The notes under the pieces were generated by a model. It had not been told where the DNA came from and did no database searches. It saw only the letters and a program-made list of their open reading frames with translations. Below are positions 19,200-40,134 of a DNA stretch of 64,000 nt, in pieces. Source of the DNA: Akkermansia sp. (lineage in GTDB: Bacteria > Verrucomicrobiota > Verrucomicrobiia > Verrucomicrobiales > Akkermansiaceae); assembly GCA_017398765.1 (NCBI GenBank), contig JAFQEY010000085.1, positions 1 through 64,000 of the forward strand, in the 5' to 3' direction. The position numbers and the translations under genes were made by a program. Each line of letters begins with the position of its first letter. Position 1 is the first letter of the stretch.

Positions 19200-20375
19200 T
19201 TATTTGCGGCGGCGGCGTGTTGCCAGAGCAGCCAGTGCCAGCAGGCTCAGCGTCGCGGTGGTCGGCTCCGGCACAGCGGCGGTACCCAGCGTGACGGTGC
19301 CGTCTTCATTGTACTGCAGCTTAACAGTGCCGGTGCTGTTGCCCTCTGCATCCAGCAGCGTGACTTCATAGCCGGAGTAGTTGTCTTCCTTAGCCCCGGT
19401 GAAGAGCACCACGTCAGAGATATCTGCATCTCCCAGAGTCAGCGCAATGCTGCTGTTGCCCGAGAACTCAACATCGTATTCTCCCAAATCAATCGTGTAA
19501 TCTGCATCGGCAAAAATCAGCTCGGCATCACCGCCCAGCACCAAATCGCCGGTCATGCTGAAATCTCCGTCCACCTGAATATCGCCTCCGGTGGCGTTGA
19601 TGCCGGCAATGGCGCTGCCAGCCTCTGCCACCAGCGTGCCGCCGGTCATGTTGATGGTTGATTCAATGACGCCGCTGTTCACCAGCTTGCCGCCATTGAG
19701 AGTGATGCTGTTGGTGGTCAGCTCCGCATCTGCGGCCACGGTGAGTGAGCCGGAATTGACCTCTATCAGGTTGGCGTTGATGACCGCTTTCTTGCTGCCG
19801 CCGATTTCTACGGAACTGCCATTAAGCTGAACGGTGTCTGCGGTTAAGCTTGCCTGGTATACAGCAAAGGAGCTAGTGCTTTCCAGAGAAATTGTTTTAG
19901 CCTCTACCGTTGCGCTATACGTGATCGTGGCTGTTCCCGAAATGGTAACCGTATCAGATGCTGTCACTTTGGCACTGTTTCTCACAACTGAGTTGCCTTT
20001 CAAGGTCACATTCTCTGCGTTCAGCTCAGAAGAAGCTTGAAATCTCACGGTACCATCAAAGGTAACGTCATTGCCCTCGATGACGGTGTTTGCAAAAACA
20101 ACGGGTGAATTTTTGGAGGTCGTTGTTCTGAATTCATCATAACCCGTTGTGTTGATTGTGCAATCTTTTATGTTTAATGTTTTGTAATCATCGCGCAAAT
20201 TGTCGTAAACAAGAACCGTCTTCCCGTTTTCGGTAACAATTGTTCGTCCGAAGTACTTTTGATCAGCATTGTCGAAGCTGCAGTTAGCACCTTCTTCCGT
20301 TGTCCAGGTTGCAGCCTGCACTGCTGCGCTGCTCAGCAGGATAGCCAGCAATAATTGGGGTAATCTTGTTTTCAT
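19200..20375 (-). CDS. PEP-CTERM surface protein with repetitive beta-rich passenger
   Basis: About 391 aa. It has a signal peptide (MKTRLPQLLLAILLSSAAVQA), then a long Thr/Ser/Val/Asn-rich body with repeating short strands (VTLKGNSVV, VTISGTATI, ITLNGGKLV, INMTGGTLV) typical of right-handed beta-helix or autotransporter-like surface proteins. The C-terminus AVPEPTTATLSLLALAALATRRRRK is a PEP-CTERM sorting signal (PEP motif, hydrophobic helix, Arg cluster), expected to be processed by an exosortase. I chose ATG 20375 because it begins the signal peptide. The ligand or role is unknown. Upstream lies an 18-bp inverted repeat bounding a 161-bp segment, so its expression may be phase-variable. 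Confidence 0.88.
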   Translation of the reverse strand: MKTRLPQLLLAILLSSAAVQAATWTTEEGANCSFDNADQKYFGRTIVTENGKTVLVYDNLRDDYKTLNIKDCTINTTGYDEFRTTTSKNSPVVFANTVIEGNDVTFDGTVRFQASSELNAENVTLKGNSVVRNSAKVTASDTVTISGTATITYSATVEAKTISLESTSSFAVYQASLTADTVQLNGSSVEIGGSKKAVINANLIEVNSGSLTVAADAELTTNSITLNGGKLVNSGVIESTINMTGGTLVAEAGSAIAGINATGGDIQVDGDFSMTGDLVLGGDAELIFADADYTIDLGEYDVEFSGNSSIALTLGDADISDVVLFTGAKEDNYSGYEVTLLDAEGNSTGTVKLQYNEDGTVTLGTAAVPEPTTATLSLLALAALATRRRRK

Positions 20376-26868: not shown

Positions 26869-29595
26869 TTAAATGGTAAGCGATTTGCGGTCCAGAATAA
26901 GTAATGTATCGGAAGCGGCTGCTTCGTCACAAAGAAACGGCATGAAGCAATTTCCTTCCTTTTGTGTCAACTCCTGCGGGAGTTCGACCCTGCAGGAGGT
27001 GCCTTGCGAGGCGGGTATCCGCAGTGCCTGTTTCCCTTCCGTCGGGGAGAAAGGCAGGGCTCCGTGTCCGCAGCGAACCTCCAGTTTCGGTATGCCCGGT
27101 TTGTTGCTCCTGATGACAAAATAGCAGGTCTTACCGGCCGAACCCTTTACACTGCACTGAACGCGCCTGAGTTCTCCCGGCTCAACGGAACACTGCTTTC
27201 TTGCGTCGCTCAGCAGCGGTTCGAATCCCGCACCGGAAAGATGCGCATAGATGCAGATATGGCACGGTTTATTGCCGATATCGGGCAGAATTCGGCGCGC
27301 TGTACGCTCGTTGTTTTCCCGTTGCACGGTCAGCGACCCGTCCGCCATGACATCGTCTACCCCTTCAGGAAAGGAACTATGGCTGTACACAACGGTCGCT
27401 TTATGGCACGCATCGGGCCAATTCCAGCTCAGTTCAATATCGTAGTCATCGCGTCGCACCCTGAGCCCGTCCACCCCGCCGTGCCGGGGAGAACAAATCA
27501 GCGCCATGTCTCCCTTGACCACCAGGGGCAAGATATAGTTTCCCGCTGCAGAGACTCGCCGCAGAACGGCACAATGATGCCCGTTTTCCTCTACAATTCC
27601 CTTACACTGAGCCGGAGAACACATGCTGCCCACCGCCCCGGGAAGCTCTTTGCCTACATACCAGTACACCTTCTCCGCGCCGGGAAGCTCGCTTCGGCTG
27701 ATGCGCAGTCCGGTAGCTGTCTGCTCGTATTTCCACTGGTTGGGCTTCAGCTCCGGAGGGGGGCTGGCCGGTGTGCCGCTTGCGCCGGCAGACACGGCTT
27801 CTGAGCCGCCATCCCGTTTGAATACCAGCAGATACCCATATTTCCTGCCGTTTTCCAGCCCCTTGTCCCTGTAGCTTGTCGCGCGGGATGCCACCGGGAG
27901 CCTGGTGCCGTCTGCTGCGGATTTCGGCACAGCCCCCTCGCGTCGCGTCAGCGTGGCCTGCCACCCGGGGGGGAGGTTGTTCCAGGAAATATCTGCCTGG
28001 CCACTACCCATCCGGATTTGCAGACGGGGCGTTGGTAACACGAGCCCCCCGGCTGTGCTACCGCGTAACACCCGTTCGCCCACGAGCGCAAAAACGGCGT
28101 AGGTGTAGAACACACCCGGCTGTACCTGACTGTCTGTGTAGGGTGAGCTCTTGCCGAAATGCTCAACGGCTTCGCCGTCTCGCTCATGTTGCGGCACCCC
28201 GTTTTGTTTTTTGCGCAGGACATAGCGTATGGGTGTTTTGCGGCTATCTGGCAGCACATCCAGTGCTCTGCCTCTGTAGAGTACCTTCTCCCATTCTACC
28301 CGCAGTGCGCTGCCTGCATTGCTGACGCTGCGTATGGCCGGTGCCTGCACATGCTGCAGTATCACGGCATCCAGTGCCGCCTGTACTTCTTGTTGCAGCT
28401 GCATGGCAGAGCTGAACTTGGGGTAGTTCTTCAGGATGACTGTCAGTCGTTCCTGAACTTTATCCAGTTCACCGTTCTTTGTCTGGTAGCGCAATTCATC
28501 CAACTCCTTGTGCTGCCGACGGATGTTGGTCATGCGGTTGCTGCATTTGCTGCATTTATCTGCCTTCGGGTCGGAAAGCGCACCGCAGAGCGGGCAATCC
28601 ACTTTGAACTGCATGCCGCAGGACACACAGCGTATGGCTTCTGCATCATTCTTCGCCTTGCAGGCGGGGCATTCCATGTGTGCGGATTGCCAGGGGAAAC
28701 GCACTTTGTTGTCGATGCAGCATTTCCTGTATAGCAGCCATTCTGCGTTTTCCCGAGACAGCCCCGCCTTACACAGAGAATCCAATAACTTGGTATAATA
28801 CTCCGCCGATATGGTGCTTGGCTTTCCTCCCTCTATATAGTCCGGCAGGCAGTCCAGAATTGGTTTGCTGGCAAGATAGATTTTCCAGGCTTCATCGCTC
28901 TTGTGCCTTTTTTCTTCAGTTTTGAAAAAAGTGCTTGCTATGATTAAAATCCTCGTGTGGATAATCGAACGTGTTGAATTTACGTCTTTGATCTTTTCGT
29001 CAGTTTTTTGTTTTTTAATTTCATTTAATTCATCAAAGCTGACATTTTCGCTGCATCCCCAATAATCGTATACGGATGTTTTCCCTGCTGCGATTAACAC
29101 TTTGTGCAAGTTTGTCATAGTTGGAGAAATAACAATTTCCATCACTCCTCCTTTGGGCTGGACTTTAGCGTTGCACGGTTCGAGTGCGGAGGTCGGGTAT
29201 GGCTGTCCCAAGGTTGTGATGCGAATATGGCATTCAGCGGCGAGCCCTTGCACCGTTTTCGCTTTCAGTTTGCAGTTATTGCAGATGTTGCGAAAGATGT
29301 TTTCTGCCACACAGCCTTTTATTTCGGCCTGCTTCAGCCGATATTTGACCCTGTCGCACTCATTCTTGTAGGCTTCCTGAGCCAGTGTGCTGAGCGTGTC
29401 GGGGTTGGATAACGCTGCCACAACCTCCTTAAAATTTTCTGCCAGCTCGTGAAGAAGGATATCGCCGTCCCGCTGTATACTGGTCCACTTCTCCGCTTCT
29501 GCGCGCGCTTTCAGTTTGGCTACAACTTTCGCGCAATTGATTTCAAGGGGCTCGAGCGATAAATCCAGAATCTCGTAGTAATTTTTCTTCTTCAT
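26869..29595 (-). CDS. J-like / zinc-ribbon / Fn3 multidomain protein
   Basis: 908 aa. The N-terminus KKNYYEILDLSLEP resembles the first helix of a J-domain, but no HPD motif follows, so it may be a J-like docking domain. Residues about 305-360 carry four or five CxxC pairs (CPACKAKNDAEAIRCVSC; CPLCGALSDPKADKCSKC), i.e. tandem zinc ribbons. A short helical repeat leads into several beta-sandwich units of fibronectin III type from about 410 to 640 (YTYAVFALVGERVLRG; YGYLLVFKRDG). The last 250 residues are more beta-rich repeats of unclear type. No signal peptide. Placed between the Hsp70-like genes and the GTPase, it may link the chaperones to clients. GC is slightly lower in the N-terminal third. 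Confidence 0.7.
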   Translation of the reverse strand: MKKKNYYEILDLSLEPLEINCAKVVAKLKARAEAEKWTSIQRDGDILLHELAENFKEVVAALSNPDTLSTLAQEAYKNECDRVKYRLKQAEIKGCVAENIFRNICNNCKLKAKTVQGLAAECHIRITTLGQPYPTSALEPCNAKVQPKGGVMEIVISPTMTNLHKVLIAAGKTSVYDYWGCSENVSFDELNEIKKQKTDEKIKDVNSTRSIIHTRILIIASTFFKTEEKRHKSDEAWKIYLASKPILDCLPDYIEGGKPSTISAEYYTKLLDSLCKAGLSRENAEWLLYRKCCIDNKVRFPWQSAHMECPACKAKNDAEAIRCVSCGMQFKVDCPLCGALSDPKADKCSKCSNRMTNIRRQHKELDELRYQTKNGELDKVQERLTVILKNYPKFSSAMQLQQEVQAALDAVILQHVQAPAIRSVSNAGSALRVEWEKVLYRGRALDVLPDSRKTPIRYVLRKKQNGVPQHERDGEAVEHFGKSSPYTDSQVQPGVFYTYAVFALVGERVLRGSTAGGLVLPTPRLQIRMGSGQADISWNNLPPGWQATLTRREGAVPKSAADGTRLPVASRATSYRDKGLENGRKYGYLLVFKRDGGSEAVSAGASGTPASPPPELKPNQWKYEQTATGLRISRSELPGAEKVYWYVGKELPGAVGSMCSPAQCKGIVEENGHHCAVLRRVSAAGNYILPLVVKGDMALICSPRHGGVDGLRVRRDDYDIELSWNWPDACHKATVVYSHSSFPEGVDDVMADGSLTVQRENNERTARRILPDIGNKPCHICIYAHLSGAGFEPLLSDARKQCSVEPGELRRVQCSVKGSAGKTCYFVIRSNKPGIPKLEVRCGHGALPFSPTEGKQALRIPASQGTSCRVELPQELTQKEGNCFMPFLCDEAAASDTLLILDRKSLTI

Positions 29596-29682: not shown

Positions 29683-31356
29683 TTACTCAATAATCATATT
29701 GTTGAGCTTGCGCTGCATTTGTCTCATTTCTGAAACCGGGATGGAAGAGCCGGTTTTCACCTCACCCTCAATGGTCTGCCCGGAGGCGGGATCGCGCGAA
29801 AGAATGTGCAGCATACCGTCTTCGCTCAGTCGGAAGATGGTCTCAATAGGGGAGCCTTTGGGTAAGCCCGGTTTGATAGGCAAGACTCCCTCCCAGATCA
29901 CATTTCCCGCTGCGGGGTCAATACCTTCCGTGTTGAGGGCATGGATTTCTGCATCGGTGGTGGGCAGTTCCACCATGTTATCCACCACGAGGGTTTTGAC
30001 GCCCGTCTGATTATCCTGCAGGGTATAACTGGTCAACGAGGCCTCAGCCGGTAGTGTGGTGTTCTTGTACAATATGTTGTAAATGCGGTTCACATAGTCA
30101 CTTTCGCGGACCAGAATCTCACCGAAGCTGCGGCTGCTGACATTGTAGGTGGGGGTAACGATGGTTGAGATAGCCTCCAGCGTCATGTCATGTTCATCTG
30201 CCAGTTGCTGGAGCTTTTCCTTCGTTTCCAGTGAAAAATCACCGGTCGTATTCGGTTCCAGAGAGAAGCCGTCAGCTTCCTCCCGCAGCAGGTGAGCCAT
30301 GGCGCAAATGGCGGCTCCTTTGGCAACGGCTTCGTCCGGATCATAGCTTACAGGCATCAACCCGAATTCCCGGCGCAGCATCGCCGGCACCTGCGGCATG
30401 TAGGTACTGCCGCCCACCAGAATCAGCTCATCTATTTTATCCACCCCTTTGCTGCGGGCTACTTCCACCGCATGGCGCGTGTCTTCCAGGGTGCGGTTAA
30501 GCAGGGCTTCGGTTTCGCTCTCAAATTCCTCGCGGGAAACGCAGGCGTAGAGCTTTTCCCCCCGGTATTTATAGCTGGTCTGAACCTCTATTTTGGAGGT
30601 GAGCAACTTTTTGGTTTTTTCTGCCAGCAGCCGCAGATCCTGCATGGCGGCAGCATCGCTTTTCAAATCAATGACACTGTCGGCGGAGTGCTGCAGGCGG
30701 CTCACCAGCATATCCAGCATCACATCATCCCAATCCTTGCCGCCCAGTTGGTGGTTGCCATCCGTGCATACCACTTTCAGCCCGGCCGGGGATACATGAA
30801 TAATCGTTACATCGAAAGTGCCGCCGCCCAGGTCATACACCAGAATGTGGCGATTCCCTTTGCCCTGTGAGCGGGAAAGCCCGTAGGCCATGGCGGCAGC
30901 CGTCGGTTCATTGAGAATTTCCAGCACATTGAGCCCGGCAAGCTGCCCGGCTGCCTTGGTGGCTTCCCGTTCCTTGTGAGAGAAATAAGCAGGGCAGGTG
31001 ATTACCACGTCCCGTACTTCCTGCCCCAGTCGGGCAGAGGCATCCTGCACCAGTTTTTTCAGGATGTATGCGGACACCTCTTCCGGTCTGAAGTCTCCCT
31101 GTGAACAGGAAAAGACATAGGAATCACTTCCCATTTCGCGCTTGATGAACGTAGCAACCTCACCCGGACTGAGGGGGGCCTCCTGTTTGGCTTCCTCGCC
31201 CACGACAATGCGATTATCTTCATCGAACCACACTGCAGAGGGGGTGGTTCGCTCACCATCCGCATTCAGCAATACTTCCGGTTTCCCGCTGTTGCCGACA
31301 ATGGCCACACAACTGTACGTTGTGCCCAGGTCTATTCCTATGGCTTTTCTGTTCAT
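29683..31356 (-). CDS. Hsp70-like protein 1 of the island
   Basis: 557 aa. The full nucleotide-binding domain is intact: IGIDLGTTYSCVA (phosphate 1), [13 protein letters not shown] (phosphate 2), NEPTAAAMAYG (connect 1) and LVGGSTYMPQVPAML (adenosine). After about residue 380 there is a beta substrate-binding-like part, but the helical lid and the EEVD-type tail of DnaK are missing; housekeeping DnaK is over 600 aa. The 87-bp gap to the next gene is the largest in the operon. It is clearly distinct from the true dnaK at 62288. It probably serves a dedicated client within this system. Confidence 0.9.
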   Translation of the reverse strand: MNRKAIGIDLGTTYSCVAIVGNSGKPEVLLNADGERTTPSAVWFDEDNRIVVGEEAKQEAPLSPGEVATFIKREMGSDSYVFSCSQGDFRPEEVSAYILKKLVQDASARLGQEVRDVVITCPAYFSHKEREATKAAGQLAGLNVLEILNEPTAAAMAYGLSRSQGKGNRHILVYDLGGGTFDVTIIHVSPAGLKVVCTDGNHQLGGKDWDDVMLDMLVSRLQHSADSVIDLKSDAAAMQDLRLLAEKTKKLLTSKIEVQTSYKYRGEKLYACVSREEFESETEALLNRTLEDTRHAVEVARSKGVDKIDELILVGGSTYMPQVPAMLRREFGLMPVSYDPDEAVAKGAAICAMAHLLREEADGFSLEPNTTGDFSLETKEKLQQLADEHDMTLEAISTIVTPTYNVSSRSFGEILVRESDYVNRIYNILYKNTTLPAEASLTSYTLQDNQTGVKTLVVDNMVELPTTDAEIHALNTEGIDPAAGNVIWEGVLPIKPGLPKGSPIETIFRLSEDGMLHILSRDPASGQTIEGEVKTGSSIPVSEMRQMQRKLNNMIIE

Positions 31357-31384
31357 ATTGTCATCGATTCAGGTATGCAGGTTA

Positions 31385-33088
31385 TTATACTTCTGCCATC
31401 TCCAATTCGGCAACTATCTTTTTCTTTTCTTCAAGATCCTCTTTAGTCAGAGCTCCGGTCACGGTAAACTCATGATTTATTTTCTTGTTGTTGGTGATAT
31501 CGCGTGCTGTAAGTTCCAGACGTCCGTTCTCATCCAGGGAGAAGGTAACTTCAATTATCGCGCCTGCGGGCAGACCGGGTGTAAGTGCCATCTCAGCCTT
31601 TCCCAGTTCCCCGCAGTAATCCAGCTCTGTGGCGATTTCGTCCATATTATTGGAGTATACAACCAGGGGAAGAGTGGTGGCATTTGCCTCTGACACAGGG
31701 AATTGCTGCGACTTGCAGCAGGGGACAGGCGTTTGCTTTTTGATAAGATTGAAGCACACCGGTTTCTTTTCCTTGTTCAGGACACGAATACCGATACTCT
31801 TGGATGCCACGGTTCTGACTGTTGTATTAATGGTTTCAGTTACCGTGGTTACTGGAAGTCTGAACCCATCCGCAACTGCTTGTTCTGCTGCCCTCTTGAT
31901 TTCATCCTCCGTTTTAGTGGGATTTGTATCCCTGATTTCTTCTATTATCTTTGTGAACGCCTCCTGAATAGCCTTGATGTTGCCATAGGCTGCTGCACCC
32001 TTGGATACGGCATAGTTCGGCTCATAGAGCTTGGGCGCTACGCCGAGCGAATCCTTATAGCGGCTTTCCACCATGGCCATAATCTGCGGCATGTAGGTGG
32101 AACCGCCCACCAGCAGGAATTCGTCTATCTTCTCAGAACCGCCGTTATCCTTGGCTATGGCGCGAGCCTTCGCAATCATGTCATCGGTAAAGCTGATGGT
32201 GCGCTCCAGCAGGGGGCGGGTCGCCTCCTCGAATTCCTCACGAGTGACACTTACCTTCACCTTGCCGTCCGGGCAGGAGATGGTGGCTTTGGCGGTTTCC
32301 CGCTGGCTGAGACTCTTCTTGGTTTTTTCCACGGTGAGCAACAGAGCAGCGGCGGTCTCCGGGTCGCTCATGGGATCACCGGCTTCGGGATTATCCAGAT
32401 TCAGTTTCTCAAGCAGAACATCGCGCAGGGCGTTATCCCAGTCTGCGCCACCCAGTTGGTGGTCACCGTCTGAGCACACCACCTGCACGCCATCGGGTGC
32501 CACTTTGACCACTGTGACGTCAAAAGTACCGCCGCCCAGGTCATACACAATCACCTGTTTGGTGGAGCTGTCACCCTCACCGTCTTTCAGCTGAGCGGCC
32601 ATGCCCAGACCGTAGCTGATAGCGGCAGCTATCGGTTCGTCTACCACGGCAAGTACATTCAGACCGGCAATCTCACCGGCTGCCTTCGTTGCGGCACGCT
32701 CAGCTTCATTGAAGTAGGCGGGGCAGGTAATCACCACATCTTTTACACTGTGTCCTTCCTTTTCCGCACCCTTGACCATGTATTTGAGAATCAGAGCGGA
32801 AATGGACTCCGGGGAGTGCTCATTGTCGAAAAATTTCTTGCGCCATGTGGAGCCGATTTCGCGCTTAATCAGGCTCACGAAATTGTCCGGGTCGATGCTG
32901 GCAGATTCCTTGGCGGTATCGCCAACGATATAATTTCCCTCTTCAAAGTACACGGCGGAGGCTGTAATCTGACCACCGTCCGGGTTGTTGATGATGGTGG
33001 CGTTGTTGCTTTCATCCATGTAGGATATTGCTGAATAGGTGGTGCCCAGGTCAATGCCGTACACCATGGGTTTTGTATTTTCGCTCAT
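31385..33088 (-). CDS. Hsp70-like protein 2 of the island
   Basis: 567 aa. The ATPase motifs are intact: [37 protein letters not shown] and LVGGSTYMPQIMAMV. The C-terminal half has a beta domain with DENGRLELTARDI, the conserved substrate-domain strand, then a short helical end (LTKEDLEEKKKIVAELEMAEV) without a full lid. It is much closer to protein 3 (33119-34660) than to protein 1; long stretches such as YFEEGNYIVGD and SIDPDNFVSLIKR are shared with protein 3. Hence a recent tandem duplication, 30 bp apart. Confidence 0.9.
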   Translation of the reverse strand: MSENTKPMVYGIDLGTTYSAISYMDESNNATIINNPDGGQITASAVYFEEGNYIVGDTAKESASIDPDNFVSLIKREIGSTWRKKFFDNEHSPESISALILKYMVKGAEKEGHSVKDVVITCPAYFNEAERAATKAAGEIAGLNVLAVVDEPIAAAISYGLGMAAQLKDGEGDSSTKQVIVYDLGGGTFDVTVVKVAPDGVQVVCSDGDHQLGGADWDNALRDVLLEKLNLDNPEAGDPMSDPETAAALLLTVEKTKKSLSQRETAKATISCPDGKVKVSVTREEFEEATRPLLERTISFTDDMIAKARAIAKDNGGSEKIDEFLLVGGSTYMPQIMAMVESRYKDSLGVAPKLYEPNYAVSKGAAAYGNIKAIQEAFTKIIEEIRDTNPTKTEDEIKRAAEQAVADGFRLPVTTVTETINTTVRTVASKSIGIRVLNKEKKPVCFNLIKKQTPVPCCKSQQFPVSEANATTLPLVVYSNNMDEIATELDYCGELGKAEMALTPGLPAGAIIEVTFSLDENGRLELTARDITNNKKINHEFTVTGALTKEDLEEKKKIVAELEMAEV

Positions 33089-33118
33089 ATTATGTTGTTG
33101 GTTTAAGGATAAAAATGG

Positions 33119-34660
33119 TTAATTCTTGTAGACGTGAACGTCTACTTGTGTTGTTAACGCAGCGAATTCGGCGTTGTCTTTTTGTGTGAAACTGATGGTG
33201 AATTTACCATCCGTGCGTATGTGGATAGACAATCCCTGCCAGTCCACCGGGCAGTTGATACGTGCTCCTATTACTTCATTCGATGAAAACGGCTTTTGCT
33301 CTATTTGCCTGATGGAGAGATTGACACACCCCGGCCATTTCCCACGGCTGTAGTTCATCGTGCAATAATGGGGCAGAAGCGTATCGGCTGCAAGTTCGTA
33401 TGAGAAACAGGACTCCAGATTGACCCGTATCCGGTGGGCAAGCCTATACTCCGGTTCAGGAGGGGTTATTGGCATCCACCCTCCTGCCACAGGCTGCTCC
33501 GGCTCAGGCGGCTCCGGGCGAACCGGACGCACCGGACGAACCGGACGCACCGGATCGATAGTGATAGGGCGAATGATTGCACACCGCTCAGCGTAGATGG
33601 CAGCACCTTTCGCCTCTACAAGATTCGTTTCGTAGAGCTTGGGGACCACACCGAGTGAATCCTTATACCGGCTTTCCACCATGGCCATAATCTGCGGCAT
33701 GCAGGTAGCCCCCCCCACCAGCAGGAATTCGTCTATCTTCTCAGAATCTCCGTTTTCCTTGGCTATGGAGCGAGCCTTCTCAATTATCTTATCGGTAATG
33801 CCGATGGTGTGCAACAGCAGGAGGAGGGTTGCCTCCTCGAATTCCGCGCGCGTGACACTTACCTTCTTCACCTTGGCGTCCGGGCAGATGATGGTGGCTT
33901 TGGCGGTTTCCCGCTGGCTGAGGCTCTTCTTGGTCTTCTCCACGGTGAGCAACAGATCAGCGGCGGTATCCGGGTCACTCATGGGGTCTCCGGCTTCAGG
34001 GTGCTCCGAATTCAGTTTATCAAGCAGAATATCACGCAGGGCGTTATTCCAGTCTTCGCCACCCAGATCAGTTTGTTCTATGTGGTGGACAAGAGACAAA
34101 CCTACGGGCGTTACCCGCACGATAGATGCACCAAAAGAAGTGCCTCCCAGACGGTAGACAAGGATGTTTCTGTCAGCTGCCCCCTCCGGCAGTTTATCCA
34201 AACCGTATCCGATGACGGCGGCAAACGGTTCATCCAGCAAGCCGTGAACATTCAGCCCGGCAATCTCCCCGGCTGCTTTTATTGCGGCACGCTCTGCTTC
34301 GTTGAAGCGGGTGGGGCAGGTAATCACCACATCTTTTACACTGTGTCCTTCCTTTTCCGCACCCTTGACCATGTATTTGAGAATCAAAGCGGAAATGGTT
34401 TCCGGCGTGTGATCTATGCCGAAAAAATTCCTGCGCCATTTGGAGCAGAGTTTTCGCTTAATCAGGCTTACGAAATTGTCCGGGTCGATGCTGGCACATT
34501 CCTTGGCTATATCGCCAACGATATAATTTCCCTCTTCAAAGTACACGGCGGAGGCTGTAAGCTGACCACCGTCCGGGTTGTTGATGATGGTGACTTCTCC
34601 GCATTCATCAGCGCAAGCTAATGCAGAATAAGTGTTACCGAATGAGATGCCGTACCACAT
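33119..34660 (-). CDS. Hsp70-like protein 3 with degraded ATPase motifs
   Basis: 513 aa from ATG 34660, which restores the usual Hsp70 N-terminus; a longer ORF extends into the GrpE-like gene. Compared with protein 2, phosphate-1 IDLGTTYS has become ISFGNTYS (Asp lost). Phosphate-2 YDLGGGTFD has become YRLGGTSFG (Asp and the GGG run lost). The adenosine motif LVGGSTYMP is LVGGATCMP. The rest of the domain is well conserved and the frame is open. This points to a non-hydrolysing pseudo-chaperone, not a pseudogene. After about residue 400 there is a Pro/Arg linker (repeats of RPV, near 33519-33560) leading to a short beta domain. It may bind or regulate protein 2. Confidence 0.85.
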   Translation of the reverse strand: MWYGISFGNTYSALACADECGEVTIINNPDGGQLTASAVYFEEGNYIVGDIAKECASIDPDNFVSLIKRKLCSKWRRNFFGIDHTPETISALILKYMVKGAEKEGHSVKDVVITCPTRFNEAERAAIKAAGEIAGLNVHGLLDEPFAAVIGYGLDKLPEGAADRNILVYRLGGTSFGASIVRVTPVGLSLVHHIEQTDLGGEDWNNALRDILLDKLNSEHPEAGDPMSDPDTAADLLLTVEKTKKSLSQRETAKATIICPDAKVKKVSVTRAEFEEATLLLLLHTIGITDKIIEKARSIAKENGDSEKIDEFLLVGGATCMPQIMAMVESRYKDSLGVVPKLYETNLVEAKGAAIYAERCAIIRPITIDPVRPVRPVRPVRPEPPEPEQPVAGGWMPITPPEPEYRLAHRIRVNLESCFSYELAADTLLPHYCTMNYSRGKWPGCVNLSIRQIEQKPFSSNEVIGARINCPVDWQGLSIHIRTDGKFTISFTQKDNAEFAALTTQVDVHVYKN

Positions 34661-34682
34661 AGGGGAGAGTTGGGTGAAGGAA

Positions 34683-35585
34683 TTATTCTGCCGGTTCAGC
34701 CGGTTTTTGGAGCACATATACCGCAACCTTTTCCAGACGAATGACCTTGTCATTCATCTCGAATCCCCAGCGGATGCTGCTTTGGATGGTTTTAGCCAGC
34801 TCCGGATTGTCTGTCGGGATGGTTTTGAGCGCGCTGTGGCGTTTGCCGTTGAAGAGGGTGCCCGGTTCGGAACGGTAGGCAATCACATCGTGGTTTTCCA
34901 ATAAATCACGAAGGTCTTCTGCATAACCACACACCAGCTTGCGCAGTTTGGCATAATTCTCCGGCGTTGCTTCGGCAGTGGCAAAATGCTCGGAACTGCG
35001 CTCAGCACCGTCTATCTCAGCGATGAGATCCATCACGATGGCGCGGGTCTGCTTGGCGGCTTCTTCCCGGCGGTAGCGCTCCAGCTCCGCATGCTGGCGG
35101 TCAATGATTTCCTGCTTGGAGGCATCATATTTCAGCTTGCGTGCAAAATCATCGCTGAGATTTTTCAGCTGAGTATCCACCGCAGATAAGGCATTGAGCA
35201 CGGGTGAGAAATCCACGGTAAACGGTTCCGGTTGCGGAAGTTTCTGCGGTTCATTATCCGGTTCCGAAGGCAGCGGCTCTGTTGCTTCAGCCGGATTCTG
35301 CGGAGCTTCCGGGCTGTCAACGGCAGGGTCTTTCTCAGAATCCTGTACTGGTGTGAGCGTGTCTGCCGATGTGTCTTCCGCTGCCATTTCGCTCGGTTCA
35401 GCAGGCTGTGCTTCGTCTGTATCCGCCGGAGCGACCGTTTCAGCCGGTGTATCGTTCGTTTCCGCCTCCGGGGTGCTTGTTTCTGCGGGCGGGGTGACCT
35501 CCTCCGCTCCAACGGGCAGAGGCTCTTCTTCTATGGTATGGGGGGTATTGTTCATTTTTCGAAATAATTTGAATAGGAAAAACAT
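34683..35585 (-). CDS. GrpE-like nucleotide-exchange factor with acidic extension
   Basis: 300 aa from ATG 35585, whose TAATG overlap with the upstream stop suggests coupled translation; ATG 35555 is an alternative. The first 130 residues are an acidic Pro/Glu/Thr/Ala-rich tail, probably disordered. From about 135, a long helix (LNALSAVDTQLKNLSDDFARKLKYD...) leads to a compact end NDKVIRLEKVAVYVLQKP, which closely follows the GrpE beta-domain pattern. GrpE releases ADP from Hsp70. Placement directly before three Hsp70-like genes supports a dedicated exchange factor. It ends 22 bp before protein 3. Confidence 0.8.
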   Translation of the reverse strand: MFFLFKLFRKMNNTPHTIEEEPLPVGAEEVTPPAETSTPEAETNDTPAETVAPADTDEAQPAEPSEMAAEDTSADTLTPVQDSEKDPAVDSPEAPQNPAEATEPLPSEPDNEPQKLPQPEPFTVDFSPVLNALSAVDTQLKNLSDDFARKLKYDASKQEIIDRQHAELERYRREEAAKQTRAIVMDLIAEIDGAERSSEHFATAEATPENYAKLRKLVCGYAEDLRDLLENHDVIAYRSEPGTLFNGKRHSALKTIPTDNPELAKTIQSSIRWGFEMNDKVIRLEKVAVYVLQKPAEPAE

Positions 35586-36769
35586 TATTTGGTGACGTGT
35601 TGAAGCATCCATCGACTCAGTTCCGCCACGCCGGAACTATCCTTGAGTTTTGATGTGTTGCTGTGGGTTGTAAAATAGCGCACGGAGCGGAATAAACTGC
35701 ATTTCTGAGCAATATCCGGCAGTTTGCGGCGTTTGAGATACGTTCTGTATGCCTCCGGCTTGCCGGAGTTCGGGGGCGCGGAATCCTCGCCTGAGTCGCA
35801 GTTCGGATCAGCGATGATGACGGCGCACTTTAATCGTTTGAGCGTCTGCAGATACCTGGAGCGCATCAGCTCATACCAACTGTCAAAAGCCCTGGCAAAG
35901 CCTGCGTGAGAAGCCGTTGAGATATCCACCACAAACACCACGGCGTTCAGGGAGCCGTAATCGCTGAATGTGTCCAGAGCGCAGGGATTTCCCATGGCTC
36001 TTTCTCGCATATCATAGAGACGCAGCTGGTGCGTCGCTTTGCTCGGCGTGTTTGCCCCGGCACGTCCTTTCTGCGCATCTATAGTGCAACAGGCAACACC
36101 CACACCGAAGGAGGGTTTGCTGACAATGCCGGACTGCCCGCACACGCTCCAGCCTGCAATATCGTTATCCCTGAAAGCCGCCAGGAGAGCTTCGAGAAGA
36201 GACAGCCGGTAGCTATCCCCCGCTGCGAGAAAGGCAACCTGTGCCTTGCCGGAGTTCTCCTGTTTTCTGCGCCGATTGCGCACCGTATCCTCACCCGGCA
36301 TCAGGAATATCCAGATGGGAATCAGCACGATTGACGCGCAGATGAAGATTCCCAACGCTCCAAGGAGAACAAGTGGCCGTAAGATGTATATCTCGAATAC
36401 ACAGATTGCTCTGATGAGTAAAACCTCACGGTCGGAGGAGCGATACCGCGCCTGAATAGGCGAAATGAGAGACGCACGGCAAACGGATTGAATGATGCCG
36501 AAACTTTGCTTCAATCTGTATTGCAGTACTTCTTTTCCTCTCATGTTGAGCGGGGCTTCGTCGCATGCCTGTTTATAAAAAACGCGGGCATTCACGGCCA
36601 CTACACCCAGTGCCCAGACGGCATACGCCAGCAGGAATCCGCTTTGCAGCGCATTATCCAGGCTGTATCTGACATCGTTTCCCAGATAATCGGCCAGAAT
36701 ATAATGATAGACCAACCATACTACAATGCATAGTATGATAAAATATCGCCGTGAAAGTTGATTGTCCAT
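35585..36769 (-). CDS. Membrane protein with degenerate GTPase-like domain
   Basis: 394 aa. Hydrophobic helices lie at about residues 8-28, 43-62 and a pair near 125-160. From about 180 the cytosolic domain reads VAFLAAGDSYRLSLLEALLAAF in the place of a P-loop, without GK(S/T). LRLYDMRERAMG stands for the switch region, NAVVFVVDIST for the Walker B strand and CAVIIADPNCD for the specificity loop. The order is that of a TRAFAC GTPase with lost nucleotide-binding residues. It may be the membrane docking partner of the zinc-ribbon GTPase at 25913; this is inference. The function is otherwise unknown. Confidence 0.65.
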   Translation of the reverse strand: MDNQLSRRYFIILCIVVWLVYHYILADYLGNDVRYSLDNALQSGFLLAYAVWALGVVAVNARVFYKQACDEAPLNMRGKEVLQYRLKQSFGIIQSVCRASLISPIQARYRSSDREVLLIRAICVFEIYILRPLVLLGALGIFICASIVLIPIWIFLMPGEDTVRNRRRKQENSGKAQVAFLAAGDSYRLSLLEALLAAFRDNDIAGWSVCGQSGIVSKPSFGVGVACCTIDAQKGRAGANTPSKATHQLRLYDMRERAMGNPCALDTFSDYGSLNAVVFVVDISTASHAGFARAFDSWYELMRSRYLQTLKRLKCAVIIADPNCDSGEDSAPPNSGKPEAYRTYLKRRKLPDIAQKCSLFRSVRYFTTHSNTSKLKDSSGVAELSRWMLQHVTK

Positions 36770-36855: not shown

Positions 36856-37179
36856 TTACATGTTATTCAGCTCAGCTTCAAGGGCATCAATAGCGGCATT
36901 CAGCTCTCTGATATCTTTGTCGCTGGTGGTGCTGTTACGCTTGGCCTTAAGCTCATTCAGCTCTTTATTGAGTTTGTTTTTTCGAGCCTGAAGAGAGTTG
37001 TTGCTGCTTTCCAGAGAGCTGACTGTCAGCTGTTTTTTGTTCATCTCCGCCAGAAGCAGAGCCTGACGCTCTGCCGCTTTGCTCGGTGACCAGAAGATGC
37101 CTCCCTTGGTCGGGTCTCCTGTCAGCGTGCAGGAACTCACTGACGCGGCAACGATGACGGCTAAAAAGATACGTTTCAT
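36856..37179 (-). CDS. Small coiled-coil lipoprotein
   Basis: 107 aa. MKRIFLAVIVAASVSSCTL is a lipoprotein signal with VSSC as lipobox. The rest is one coiled coil (MNKKQLTVSSLESSNNSLQARKNKLNKEL...), and the shape recalls murein-lipoprotein-type spacers. It lies between two envelope-associated genes of the island. The 86-bp gap downstream shows nothing notable. Confidence 0.65.
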   Translation of the reverse strand: MKRIFLAVIVAASVSSCTLTGDPTKGGIFWSPSKAAERQALLLAEMNKKQLTVSSLESSNNSLQARKNKLNKELNELKAKRNSTTSDKDIRELNAAIDALEAELNNM

Positions 37180-37201: not shown

Positions 37202-37807
37202 TTAACGAGATACTAAGGTATTAACCTTGGATTTGTAGCTATTCAGTTCATCACGTTCACGAACGAGCGTGTTGATTTTTTTATTCATGGCTATTCTTTC
37301 ACTGCCCTTTGCCTCACGGGCGGCTTGCCGCGCAATGGTAAGGTCAGAATCGATGAGGGAGATATTCTCATCCAGCTCTTTTTTGAATTGTTGAGCCCGA
37401 TTTGCCGTGAGACGCTGTTTGCGCTGCTTCATGGTGTTGAGTTCATTGGCAAGTCTATTATTCTGCTTGCTCAACTCTGCAATCCGGTTATCCAGATGTT
37501 TTGAGTTGGCGCGGATAAATTCCTCTGTGTTGGCACATTGCTCTTTCTTTTTGGCAACGGAATCGCCCCACAGATAGCCGGCAATTCCCCCTATAAAGGA
37601 ACCGATAGCCGCCCCCATTGCTGCGCCTCTTTTGCCGTCAATCGCAGCACCGATCCCTGTTCCGATAGCACCGCCACCGACTATTCCGATTCCTGTCCCT
37701 CCTGCAATGGTCAGGGATCTGTCTGACATACTGCTGCAGGAGCACATGATGCCGCCAATCAGCAGCGCAGATGTCCATTTTTTGTAATTCATAATGTTGT
37801 GTTTCAT
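37202..37807 (-). CDS. Glycine-zipper lipoprotein with coiled-coil tail
   Basis: 201 aa; ATG 37792 is an alternative start. A signal region with CSCSS (lipobox near residue 24) is followed by a glycine-zipper stretch of about 50 residues (GGTGIGIVGGGAIGTGIGAA...GAAIGSFIGGIAGYLWGD), as in SlyB/YMGG-type envelope proteins, and then a long coiled coil. Glycine zippers can oligomerise in membranes, so it could form a pore or scaffold. Paired with the lipoprotein 22 bp downstream. Confidence 0.68.
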   Translation of the reverse strand: MKHNIMNYKKWTSALLIGGIMCSCSSMSDRSLTIAGGTGIGIVGGGAIGTGIGAAIDGKRGAAMGAAIGSFIGGIAGYLWGDSVAKKKEQCANTEEFIRANSKHLDNRIAELSKQNNRLANELNTMKQRKQRLTANRAQQFKKELDENISLIDSDLTIARQAAREAKGSERIAMNKKINTLVRERDELNSYKSKVNTLVSR

Positions 37808-37821
37808 AGATAAGCTATATC

Positions 37822-38916
37822 CTATTTTGTTTTGTTATTGATAATCTTCTTGCCTTTATAGTTAATGGGGGCGAAGTCGGAAGAAAGCGGGAATTCTGCA
37901 TCACCGATGCTATCTGTGATGCCTTCGATTATTCCGCCCTGACCAATCAGAACCTGAGTTTGCCCGTATTTGATGACGCGGTCGCCCTCCGCATTCTGGA
38001 AAATCCGAGCCGTGATCAGCTCCATTCTCAATCCGGATACTCCAACGGAAACAATCTTGATGGCGCGGACGGGGTAACGGGCATTATACTCATCCAACCT
38101 TTCTTTGAGTTCGTCCCGATTAAACAGGAGACTTGATTCCGTTTCCACCACTTTTTCGTTGAAATGCGTATTGATCAGCTGCCCGGCATCCTGCGTGCCG
38201 ACTAAAATACGAAGCAGGGGTTCTACCAGTTTCTCTGCGTCTGCTGCACTCAACTTTGTCAACTTGCTCTCCGTGCGAGGAGAGGAGTCCGCTGGCTTCC
38301 TTTCTGCATCAGTTGTGTTTTTTGGTGTATTTCTGGGCTTGATAGGCACTGCACGGGACCTGGTATTCAGTGGCCTTGCTTTGCCGCCATGTCTTGTGGT
38401 GTTTCTTGTCTGCTGGCCATTTTGTGGCTGACGCTGCGGTTGCGTCGTCTTTTCCCCATCGGTTGCGGTGCTCGAAGTCTCCTGCCGTGTGTTTTTCGGG
38501 GGGGCGGGAGGTGGAGTAACTGTTTCCACAGGCGGGGTGACTGGTTTTACCGTGGGGGCAGGGGGCGGCTCAACCGTTCTGTTGGTCGGGGGCTCTTCTG
38601 TATCGGTTTGGGTGGTTGCTATCGGAGCATTGTCGGAGCCCCAATCCGGTATCGTACCCAGAAGCCGGGGGGCTGAAATCTCGGTGTCGGTATTGTCGAT
38701 TTCAGGAGAAGATGAGAATGGAGCCTTGACATCCAGATAATAATATCCGAAGACAAAGCCGACACATGCAAAAAAAATCACGGCAAATCCGACTCCGGTC
38801 TTCCCGTTATCAGAAAAGAAAAATCGGGCTGTTGCTCCGGGCATGCCGCAGTGCGGGCAAATCTCCCCGCAGTACGTGGAGTTACACATGCACCTGACCT
38901 GTTTGTCCTTAGCCAT
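37822..38916 (-). CDS. Zinc-ribbon membrane protein, first gene of the island operon
   Basis: 364 aa. The N-terminal zinc ribbon is CMCNSTYCGEICPHC (residues 9-23), followed by a transmembrane helix at about 43-62 (VGFAVIFFACVGFVFGYYYL). A long Pro/Thr-rich, disordered linker (about 65-215) precedes a folded C-terminal domain from about 225 (AADAEKLVEPLLRILVG...). Cytosolic zinc ribbon and exported C-domain are predicted. The start codon lies 24 bp from the 18-bp inverted repeat at 38940-38957, so its transcription should depend on that element. The zinc ribbon is a theme shared with the GTPase and Fn3 proteins. Confidence 0.7.
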   Translation of the reverse strand: MAKDKQVRCMCNSTYCGEICPHCGMPGATARFFFSDNGKTGVGFAVIFFACVGFVFGYYYLDVKAPFSSSPEIDNTDTEISAPRLLGTIPDWGSDNAPIATTQTDTEEPPTNRTVEPPPAPTVKPVTPPVETVTPPPAPPKNTRQETSSTATDGEKTTQPQRQPQNGQQTRNTTRHGGKARPLNTRSRAVPIKPRNTPKNTTDAERKPADSSPRTESKLTKLSAADAEKLVEPLLRILVGTQDAGQLINTHFNEKVVETESSLLFNRDELKERLDEYNARYPVRAIKIVSVGVSGLRMELITARIFQNAEGDRVIKYGQTQVLIGQGGIIEGITDSIGDAEFPLSSDFAPINYKGKKIINNKTK

Positions 38917-38939
38917 AATTGAACGCTGGTCATACTACA

Positions 38940-39129
38940 GCATTTAGAATGCTGATGTGTTCAATTTGCACCTTGAGCCAATATTCTCAATTACCTTTGA
39001 ATTACATGTAATCGTAGCAAAAAGTGAAAACGAAACATAAGGAAGCAATTCTTATAATGTTAATGACTAATTTTACGTTAAAAATACACATTAGTCGTTA
39101 GATTTTGCTTGCATCAGCATTCTAAATGC
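38940..39129. repeat. 18-bp inverted repeat bounding the divergent promoter of island and recombinase
   Basis: GCATTTAGAATGCTGATG at 38940-38957 recurs as its exact reverse complement at 39112-39129. The left core CAGCATT-TAG-AATGCTG is a 7+3+7 palindrome. On the minus strand a -10-like TAGTAT (38932-38937) sits 17 bp from the present -35 position, which reads ACACAT. After inversion it would read TTGCAT (now 39109-39114). The segment also holds TAATGACTAA (39061-39070) and its near-complement TTAGTCGTTA (39091-39100). Confidence 0.72.
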
Positions 39130-39144
39130 ATATCCGTTCACATA

Positions 39145-40134
39145 ATGATTATGAATACCGTACATGATATCATCAGCCATTTGCCATTGAATATGAAAGA
39201 TGTTGCGCGTCTGGCAGCGGAAGCAACAGAGGAGTTGGGAGAGAGAGCTCAAGGGCTCACTCGCCTGCAAATGCTATGTTTGTTGCGCCGGTTGATACGT
39301 GCCGGTGCAGAGGCCGTTAAAGCCGAGGAACACACGGTCAGCTTTGCCGAAGCAGCGTGGGAAAGTGTGTCGGCTCGGGCAGGGCGTCGGGCAACTACGC
39401 TGCGAGATTTGCGGCATTTTGTGCGGCGAATGCTGCGGGTGGAAGGGGTTGGTGAACGGCCGCTGCGCGCCATGCGAACGCGAGAATGCCGAGAGTTACT
39501 GGAGCAGGCTTTCGGTAACAGCAATCACAGCTTTAACAAGGGACGCGCCATCTTGCACAGCATCTTTGCCTACGGGGAGCGCCGGGAATGGTGTTGTGAT
39601 AATCCGGTGAGTCGTATTGAATGCCGCCGGATTCATGAAAAAGAAATCGTGCCGTTGAGTCTGCAGGAGGTGCAGCGTTTGGAGCAGGCGGCTCAGCAGC
39701 CGGAGCACCGGGACATGCTTTTCTCTCTCCATCTGCTGTTGTACAACGGCGTTCGCCCACATGAAGTGGCGCGTTTGAGTGAGCGCAACATCCGCCCGGA
39801 ACAAAATCGCATCATTATTCCTCCCGACAGGAGTAAAACCGGTGGCGGTCGTGTGCTGCCGCTTCGTAAGAAAAAGCGGTTACAGGGTGTCGCGCTCAGT
39901 ATTCCAAAAAATTGGCAGCAGCGTTGGCGCGCTCTTCGCCGTGCCGCCGGGTTTCGCTTTTGGCAGCCGGATGTGTGCCGCCACACTTTTGCCAGCTATC
40001 ATGCGGTGTATTTCAGGAATTTGGAGGAACTGCAGCTGGAGATGGGGCATCGCAGCATTGAGTTGCTGCGCTCGCGCTATTTGAACTTGCCGCGGGTGTC
40101 TCACGCGAGAAAATATTGGGAAGTGTCTAAATAA
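39145..40134 (+). CDS. Tyrosine recombinase next to inverted repeats
   Basis: About 329 aa. It has an N-terminal helical DNA-binding domain (residues 30-130) and a catalytic domain with Arg204 (NGVRPHEVARL), Lys231 (RSKTGGGRVLP), Arg279 (DVCRHTFASY), His302 (MGHRS) and Tyr312 (RYLNLP). The first His of HxxR is Asp276, a tolerated change in some XerC/D-like proteins. ATG 39145 or 39151 is the likely start; the in-frame TTG at 39109 overlaps the inverted repeat. Candidate substrates are the repeats at 38940/39112 and perhaps 20444/20587. It may be a dedicated inversion enzyme rather than a mobile-element integrase, as no element ends are seen. Confidence 0.9.
   Translation: MIMNTVHDIISHLPLNMKDVARLAAEATEELGERAQGLTRLQMLCLLRRLIRAGAEAVKAEEHTVSFAEAAWESVSARAGRRATTLRDLRHFVRRMLRVEGVGERPLRAMRTRECRELLEQAFGNSNHSFNKGRAILHSIFAYGERREWCCDNPVSRIECRRIHEKEIVPLSLQEVQRLEQAAQQPEHRDMLFSLHLLLYNGVRPHEVARLSERNIRPEQNRIIIPPDRSKTGGGRVLPLRKKKRLQGVALSIPKNWQQRWRALRRAAGFRFWQPDVCRHTFASYHAVYFRNLEELQLEMGHRSIELLRSRYLNLPRVSHARKYWEVSK

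Follow-up and report, generated by a model that had tools for sequence, protein, structure and literature searches.

A recombinase, an inverted repeat and a divergent operon

The window, that is, the whole stretch of 64,000 nucleotides that was analysed, lies on contig C85 of a draft genome of Akkermansia sp. (2.16 Mb in 102 contigs, 84% complete). Within it, a gene for a tyrosine recombinase on the plus strand and an operon on the minus strand diverge from an inverted repeat at 38940-39129.

The operon begins with a gene for a 364-aa protein (37822..38916, minus strand, as are all that follow) in which a zinc-ribbon-like N-terminus and one membrane helix were recognised by inspection, with no Pfam match. 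It continues with two small probable lipoproteins, one containing a glycine-zipper (37202-37807) and the other a coiled-coil (36856-37179), a 394-aa protein of unassigned family (35585-36769), a GrpE-like protein (34683-35612) and three Hsp70 (DnaK-like) genes (29683..34753), and ends with a 908-aa protein (26869..29595) that has a weak match to a double zinc ribbon. The combination of recombinase, repeat and divergent zinc-ribbon/GrpE/DnaK operon is conserved in eight genomes: among the Akkermansia and Akkermansiaceae metagenome assemblies in which relatives were found by protein, synteny extends over all of these parts in G008:C35 and, at protein identities of roughly 26-68%, in six further genomes of the genus. 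Of the third DnaK-like gene (33119-34753), G008 retains only a recognisable N-terminal stretch; in the remaining orthologous operons, there are two DnaK genes, and the third was not found as a separate full copy. Assignment of the operon as an anti-phage system was rejected, PADLOC having given weak matches only, to coiled-coil or glycine-zipper stretches.

The recombinase gene (39151..40134, plus strand, 327 aa) starts with an ATG 21 bp from the right arm of the repeat and is the neighbouring tyrosine recombinase that the first-pass annotation had pointed out. By its catalytic residues and modelled fold, the protein is a tyrosine site-specific recombinase and the probable invertase. The catalytic set R202, K229, D274-x-x-R277, H300 and Y310 is invariant in the family alignment, with D in place of H at the first box position, in agreement with the pattern R...K...[H/D]xxR...H...Y; the protein matches Pfam Phage_integrase, and the closest PDB folds to its AF2 model (pLDDT 90) are Tn1549 Int, lambda Int, XerA and IntI. 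The comparison was made by fold because a phmmer search of PDB sequences returned chance matches only (hedgehog proteins).

The recombinase has 12 other matches within its own genome, some of them fragments, and up to 24 in other genomes of the genus. Most of the relatives with enough upstream sequence have an inverted repeat shortly 5' of the matched start, mostly at a distance of 19-53 bp, and in most of these repeats 109-166 nt separate the arms. Further members of this recombinase family could also act in trans on the arms at 38940-39129. Translation of the recombinase from TTG 39109, within the arm, would turn the inversion into an intragenic one; this start was rejected because the homologues align from the ATG at 39151 and the paralogues begin after the arm. 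A viral origin of the recombinase was likewise rejected, no relative having been found among viral contigs.

The repeat and related elements in the genome and genus

The left, operon-side arm of the repeat (GCATTTAGAATGCTGATG, 38940..38957, plus strand) contains the palindrome GCATT-TAG-AATGC, and the right, recombinase-side arm (CATCAGCATTCTAAATGC, 39112..39129, plus strand) is its exact reverse complement, with 18 of 18 positions complementary; between the arms lies the putative invertible segment of 154 nt (38958..39111, with no strand assigned). The exact 18-bp inverted repeat around a 190-bp span, as first described, is thus present, with the short exact inverted repeats around an intergenic segment by which invertons are recognised. 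Exact inverted repeats of at least 14 bp with a gap of 40-600 nt number two in the whole 64-kb window, both of 18 bp, namely, 38940-38957/39112-39129 and 20444-20461/20587-20604. First-order Markov shuffles yield 0.1 such repeats per window, with a maximum of 15 bp, and the repeat at 38940-39129 far exceeds this chance expectation. The second repeat (TCGCATTTCAAATGCGAT) encloses 125 nt upstream of a gene for a PEP-CTERM protein (19200-20375, minus strand), with TATACT outside its left arm and TGTACA inside its right arm.

Each arm at 38940-39129 carries one copy of the palindrome GCATT-NNN-AATGC, which occurs 43 times in the genome, against 0 copies of a reversed-pattern control. Many of these sites are paired 130-500 bp apart, with three-base cores complementary within the pair, and the repeat studied here is one of many such elements in the genome. 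The longer form TCGCATT-NNN-AATGCGA is present in 17-24 copies in this genome and three near relatives, and in this genome its sites adjoin PEP-CTERM genes. The published Akkermansia motif, CGGATT..AATCCG, has 51-88 copies in several other genomes and 0 in this one when searched with a two- or three-base gap. Judged by its arms, CAGCATT-NNN-AATGCTG, the focal element does not carry the CGGATT (group-138) motif and belongs to a third, recombinase-linked set. The arm motif varies by clade, CGGATT as against TCGCATT, with some genomes having neither, which suggests drift of invertase specificity.

The arms as probable promoter spacers

On the operon side, a -10-like hexamer, TAGTAT (38932..38937, minus strand), lies outside the inverting segment, in a register at which most related loci have TA. 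It is separated by a 17-bp spacer (CAGCATTCTAAATGCTG, 38954-38938, minus strand) from the present -35 position, which is occupied by ACACAT (38960-38955, minus strand). A -35-like hexamer, TTGCAT (39109..39114, plus strand), lies at the inner end on the recombinase side; related loci have TTGCAT, TTGACT or TTGACC there, and inversion of the segment would put this hexamer 17 bp from TAGTAT. All of these elements stand where the first-pass annotation had located them. Its proposal of an invertible operon promoter is not supported by the single focal sequence, in which TTGCAT-17-TAGTAT scores 7.5 bits, below the median of 8.9 for the best-scoring site of shuffled sequences; neither orientation rises above shuffled sequence, and a promoter call on this basis was discarded as not significant. 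The proposal gains its support from comparison, namely, from the conserved register and from the inverted paralogue and contig breaks described in the following section.

Among the loci with a correctly placed palindrome centre, a sample that leaves out some divergent loci, the operon-side outer hexamer at 17-bp spacing starts with TA and has 4-5 matches to TATAAT in most cases, and the recombinase-side outer hexamer matches about 1/6 of the TATAAT positions in closely related loci. An inner TTG hexamer occurs in the same register just inside one arm, in most loci on the recombinase side. In G022:C49 (TTGCAT-17-TACAAT) and G005:C26 (TTGACA-17-TAGAAT), it is the operon side that carries the hexamer, which would represent the ON state. 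Of the 15 G004 pairs of the published motif, 14 have TTG at the exact register in one arm only (P about 4e-15). An outer TA at a spacing of exactly 17 bp is seen for 12 of the 30 arms, the highest value of all registers. Because the -35/17 bp/-10 register is kept both at the paralogues and in the published-motif pairs, the arm appears to serve as the promoter spacer, such that inversion would exchange the -35. The focal assembly is accordingly predicted, from its hexamers, to represent the OFF state of the operon promoter.

The suggestion that the present orientation is more favourable for the recombinase finds no support at the junction: there is no -10 there, the recombinase-side outer hexamer being ATCCGT, one of the poorly matching kind. 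For the recombinase, a promoter within the segment is a more plausible guess than one at the junction. The candidate, TATAAT (39053..39058, plus strand), faces the recombinase and lies near the place of a conserved sequence of the paralogues, TTGATT-17-TATAAG or similar, which sits inside the segment and faces the recombinase in the common orientation. If TATAAT at 39053 indeed served as the recombinase promoter, the inversion that switches the operon ON would at the same time silence the recombinase.

Evidence for inversion

A relative has a paralogous locus, G022:C49, whose segment has to be reverse-complemented to align to homologous loci, with z of 26 for G022:C8, 22.8 for G008:C53, 10.0 for G008:C65 and 6.5 for G000:C46, and z of 1.1 or less for the other orientation (0.7 for G022:C8); the recombinase-side flank aligns to the same loci directly. 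These comparisons show the segment of this paralogue in the opposite orientation.

Contigs also tend to break at the arms: 7 of the 43 GCATT-NNN-AATGC sites lie at most 25 bp from a contig end, where 0.10 are expected (P about 2e-11). The alignments of contigs C22 and C6 to G022:C8 stop at one arm and resume at the other, with exactly the segment missing, and the two contigs are apparently the flanks of one inverton. The breaks at the arms of C22 and C6 can be understood as an effect of mixed orientations on the assembly graph; a repeated segment could act similarly. In addition, the arms change in concert, the arm core being TAG in the focal genome versus TCG in the G008 orthologue, with further cores at other orthologous loci, and the arms being identical within each locus, with about 64% identity between the focal and G008 segments.

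Both orientations are thus found among paralogous loci and indicated by contig breaks, and the orthologous focal loci show one. A fixed orientation in related genomes, which the first-pass annotation had named as evidence against inversion, is what the orthologous Hsp70-operon loci display (8 of 8 assemblies in the same orientation, predicted OFF), but not the paralogous G022:C49, which is inverted. In view of the uniform orthologues, the focal switch may strongly prefer one orientation or be seldom used. We infer from the comparisons as a whole that the segment at 38940-39129 inverts and that the element is very probably a real, functional invertible promoter.

The proposed switch and its alternatives

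The reading that we favour, with good confidence, is that a site-specific invertible promoter half, flipped by the divergent recombinase, switches the zinc-ribbon/GrpE/DnaK operon. The tyrosine recombinase would recombine the two arms and thereby invert the segment between them, with each arm doubling as a recombination site and a 17-bp promoter spacer. The recombination site would be the palindrome GCATT-NNN-AATGC, whose three-base core would have to match between the partners. The operon's -10 would stay in place beyond the left arm, and its -35, TTGCAT, would occupy one inner end of the inverting segment. As assembled, TTGCAT would be parked on the recombinase side without a following -10, leaving the operon OFF; after inversion, it would stand 17 bp from TAGTAT, and the operon would be ON. 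It is presumably this recombinase that acts on the arms at 38940-39129, and the transcription states given here for the two orientations are predictions from sequence. Far more tentatively, the same principle, with the arm as a 17-bp spacer and only the -35 exchanged, might apply Akkermansia-wide and, combined with an invertase promoter in the segment at recombinase-linked loci, would yield a self-limiting switch that sets the conserved Hsp70/GrpE operon into one or the other of two heritable states.

A different view, to which we assign an appreciable but minority chance, takes the recombinase as the main regulated gene, with its promoter in the segment, so that inversion mainly shuts off the recombinase in a self-limiting manner and the effect on the operon is secondary or merely coupled. 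The distance of 21 bp between the ATG and the arm leaves little room for an outside promoter, and both the internal promoter-like sequences of the paralogues and the focal TATAAT at 39053 point towards the recombinase. However, the -35 of the candidate internal promoter at the focal locus (ACGAAA) is poor, CATAAT just 5' of the ATG could serve a leaderless transcript, and the conserved operon-side outer -10 would be left unexplained.

The uniform orientation of the eight orthologous assemblies lends itself to two further interpretations, each of which we consider unlikely. The arms could be operators, that is, palindromic sites bound by a repressor or by the recombinase in a regulatory role, and the locus would then not invert; each arm does hold its own palindrome. 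Yet the segment takes the opposite orientation at a paralogous locus, contigs end at arms, and the core varies freely among loci but matches between partners, a match required for strand exchange but not for repressor binding. Alternatively, the locus could be a relic that formerly inverted and is now locked OFF in this lineage, where five near-identical genomes share the orientation. This is hard to reconcile with an intact recombinase with invariant catalytic residues and with the concerted change of the two arms between the focal genome and G008, whose segments have meanwhile diverged, a sign that the site has stayed in use.

Relation to known invertible promoters

The genus shares the layout at 38940-39129, which represents a variant of an already known type of switch. 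The CGGATT..AATCCG inverton motif of Akkermansia (Jiang et al. 2019, as cited in PMC13343947) has been recovered once more as group 138, in the vicinity of PEP-CTERM genes (PMC11892184), which also neighbour elements of the present genome, and flipping has been demonstrated for the cps1 inverton of Akkermansia muciniphila (PMC13343947). Invertases near invertons are generally not regulatable by those invertons (PMC11892184), whereas the focal recombinase starts only 21 bp from an arm. The CGGATT invertons of A. muciniphila and the focal element share the genus, a similar segment length, a palindromic arm with a three-base core matched between partners, and the 17-bp register with TTG inside one arm and TA outside. 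They differ in the arm sequence, in the recombinase gene that directly adjoins the focal element and in the genes concerned, which are capsule or PEP-CTERM genes there and a chaperone-type operon here.

The invertible promoters of Bacteroides, for example, Mpi of B. fragilis, similarly involve a site-specific recombinase and short inverted repeats, with the orientation controlling the neighbouring genes. They employ adjacent or global tyrosine or serine invertases and contain the whole promoter within the segment, whereas the predicted focal promoter is split across the arm. In E. coli, a tyrosine recombinase, FimB or FimE, inverts the short promoter element fimS, again with the whole promoter inside the segment; the likeness to fimS is one of layout, and the predicted split promoter sets the focal locus apart.

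Invertons in Akkermansia are already known, and the arm-as-spacer arrangement is put forward here with no claim to priority over Jiang et al. 2019. In the literature searched, which covers that study through its citation in PMC13343947, we found no description of the CAGCATT-NNN-AATGCTG set or of the Hsp70 operon as phase-variable. The switch proposed here would carry phase variation in Akkermansia, an intensively studied genus of the gut, beyond surface structures to a conserved operon that encodes Hsp70 and GrpE homologues, for which the recombinase at 39151..40134 can be named as the likely invertase. The sequence rule that comes with it (the arm as a 17-bp spacer between a -35 within the segment and a -10 beyond it, and three-base cores that match) would allow the ON and OFF states of Akkermansia invertons to be read from sequence and tested.

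Other arrangements of the arm motifs

Several other loci carry the motifs in other configurations. At G000:C23:25500-33500 (L109), three same-core GCATTNNNAATGC sites (C23:27814, 28312 and 30878) lie near similar small secreted proteins starting with MKKTIIALMALAGVASA, one of which has a PEP-CTERM match, and the region looks like a multi-site shuffling locus. At G000:C68:15244 (L158), GCATTTACAATGC is embedded in a far longer perfect palindrome, with 11 further bases on each side; the site is 124 bp from the end of a contig that carries a C-terminal fragment of a recombinase. Finally, at G004:C1:1338400-1339000 (L189), TAGCAT is present at the 17-bp register on both outer flanks with a single inner TTGACT, possibly an either-or switch between two divergent genes, and C57 (L094) resembles this locus.
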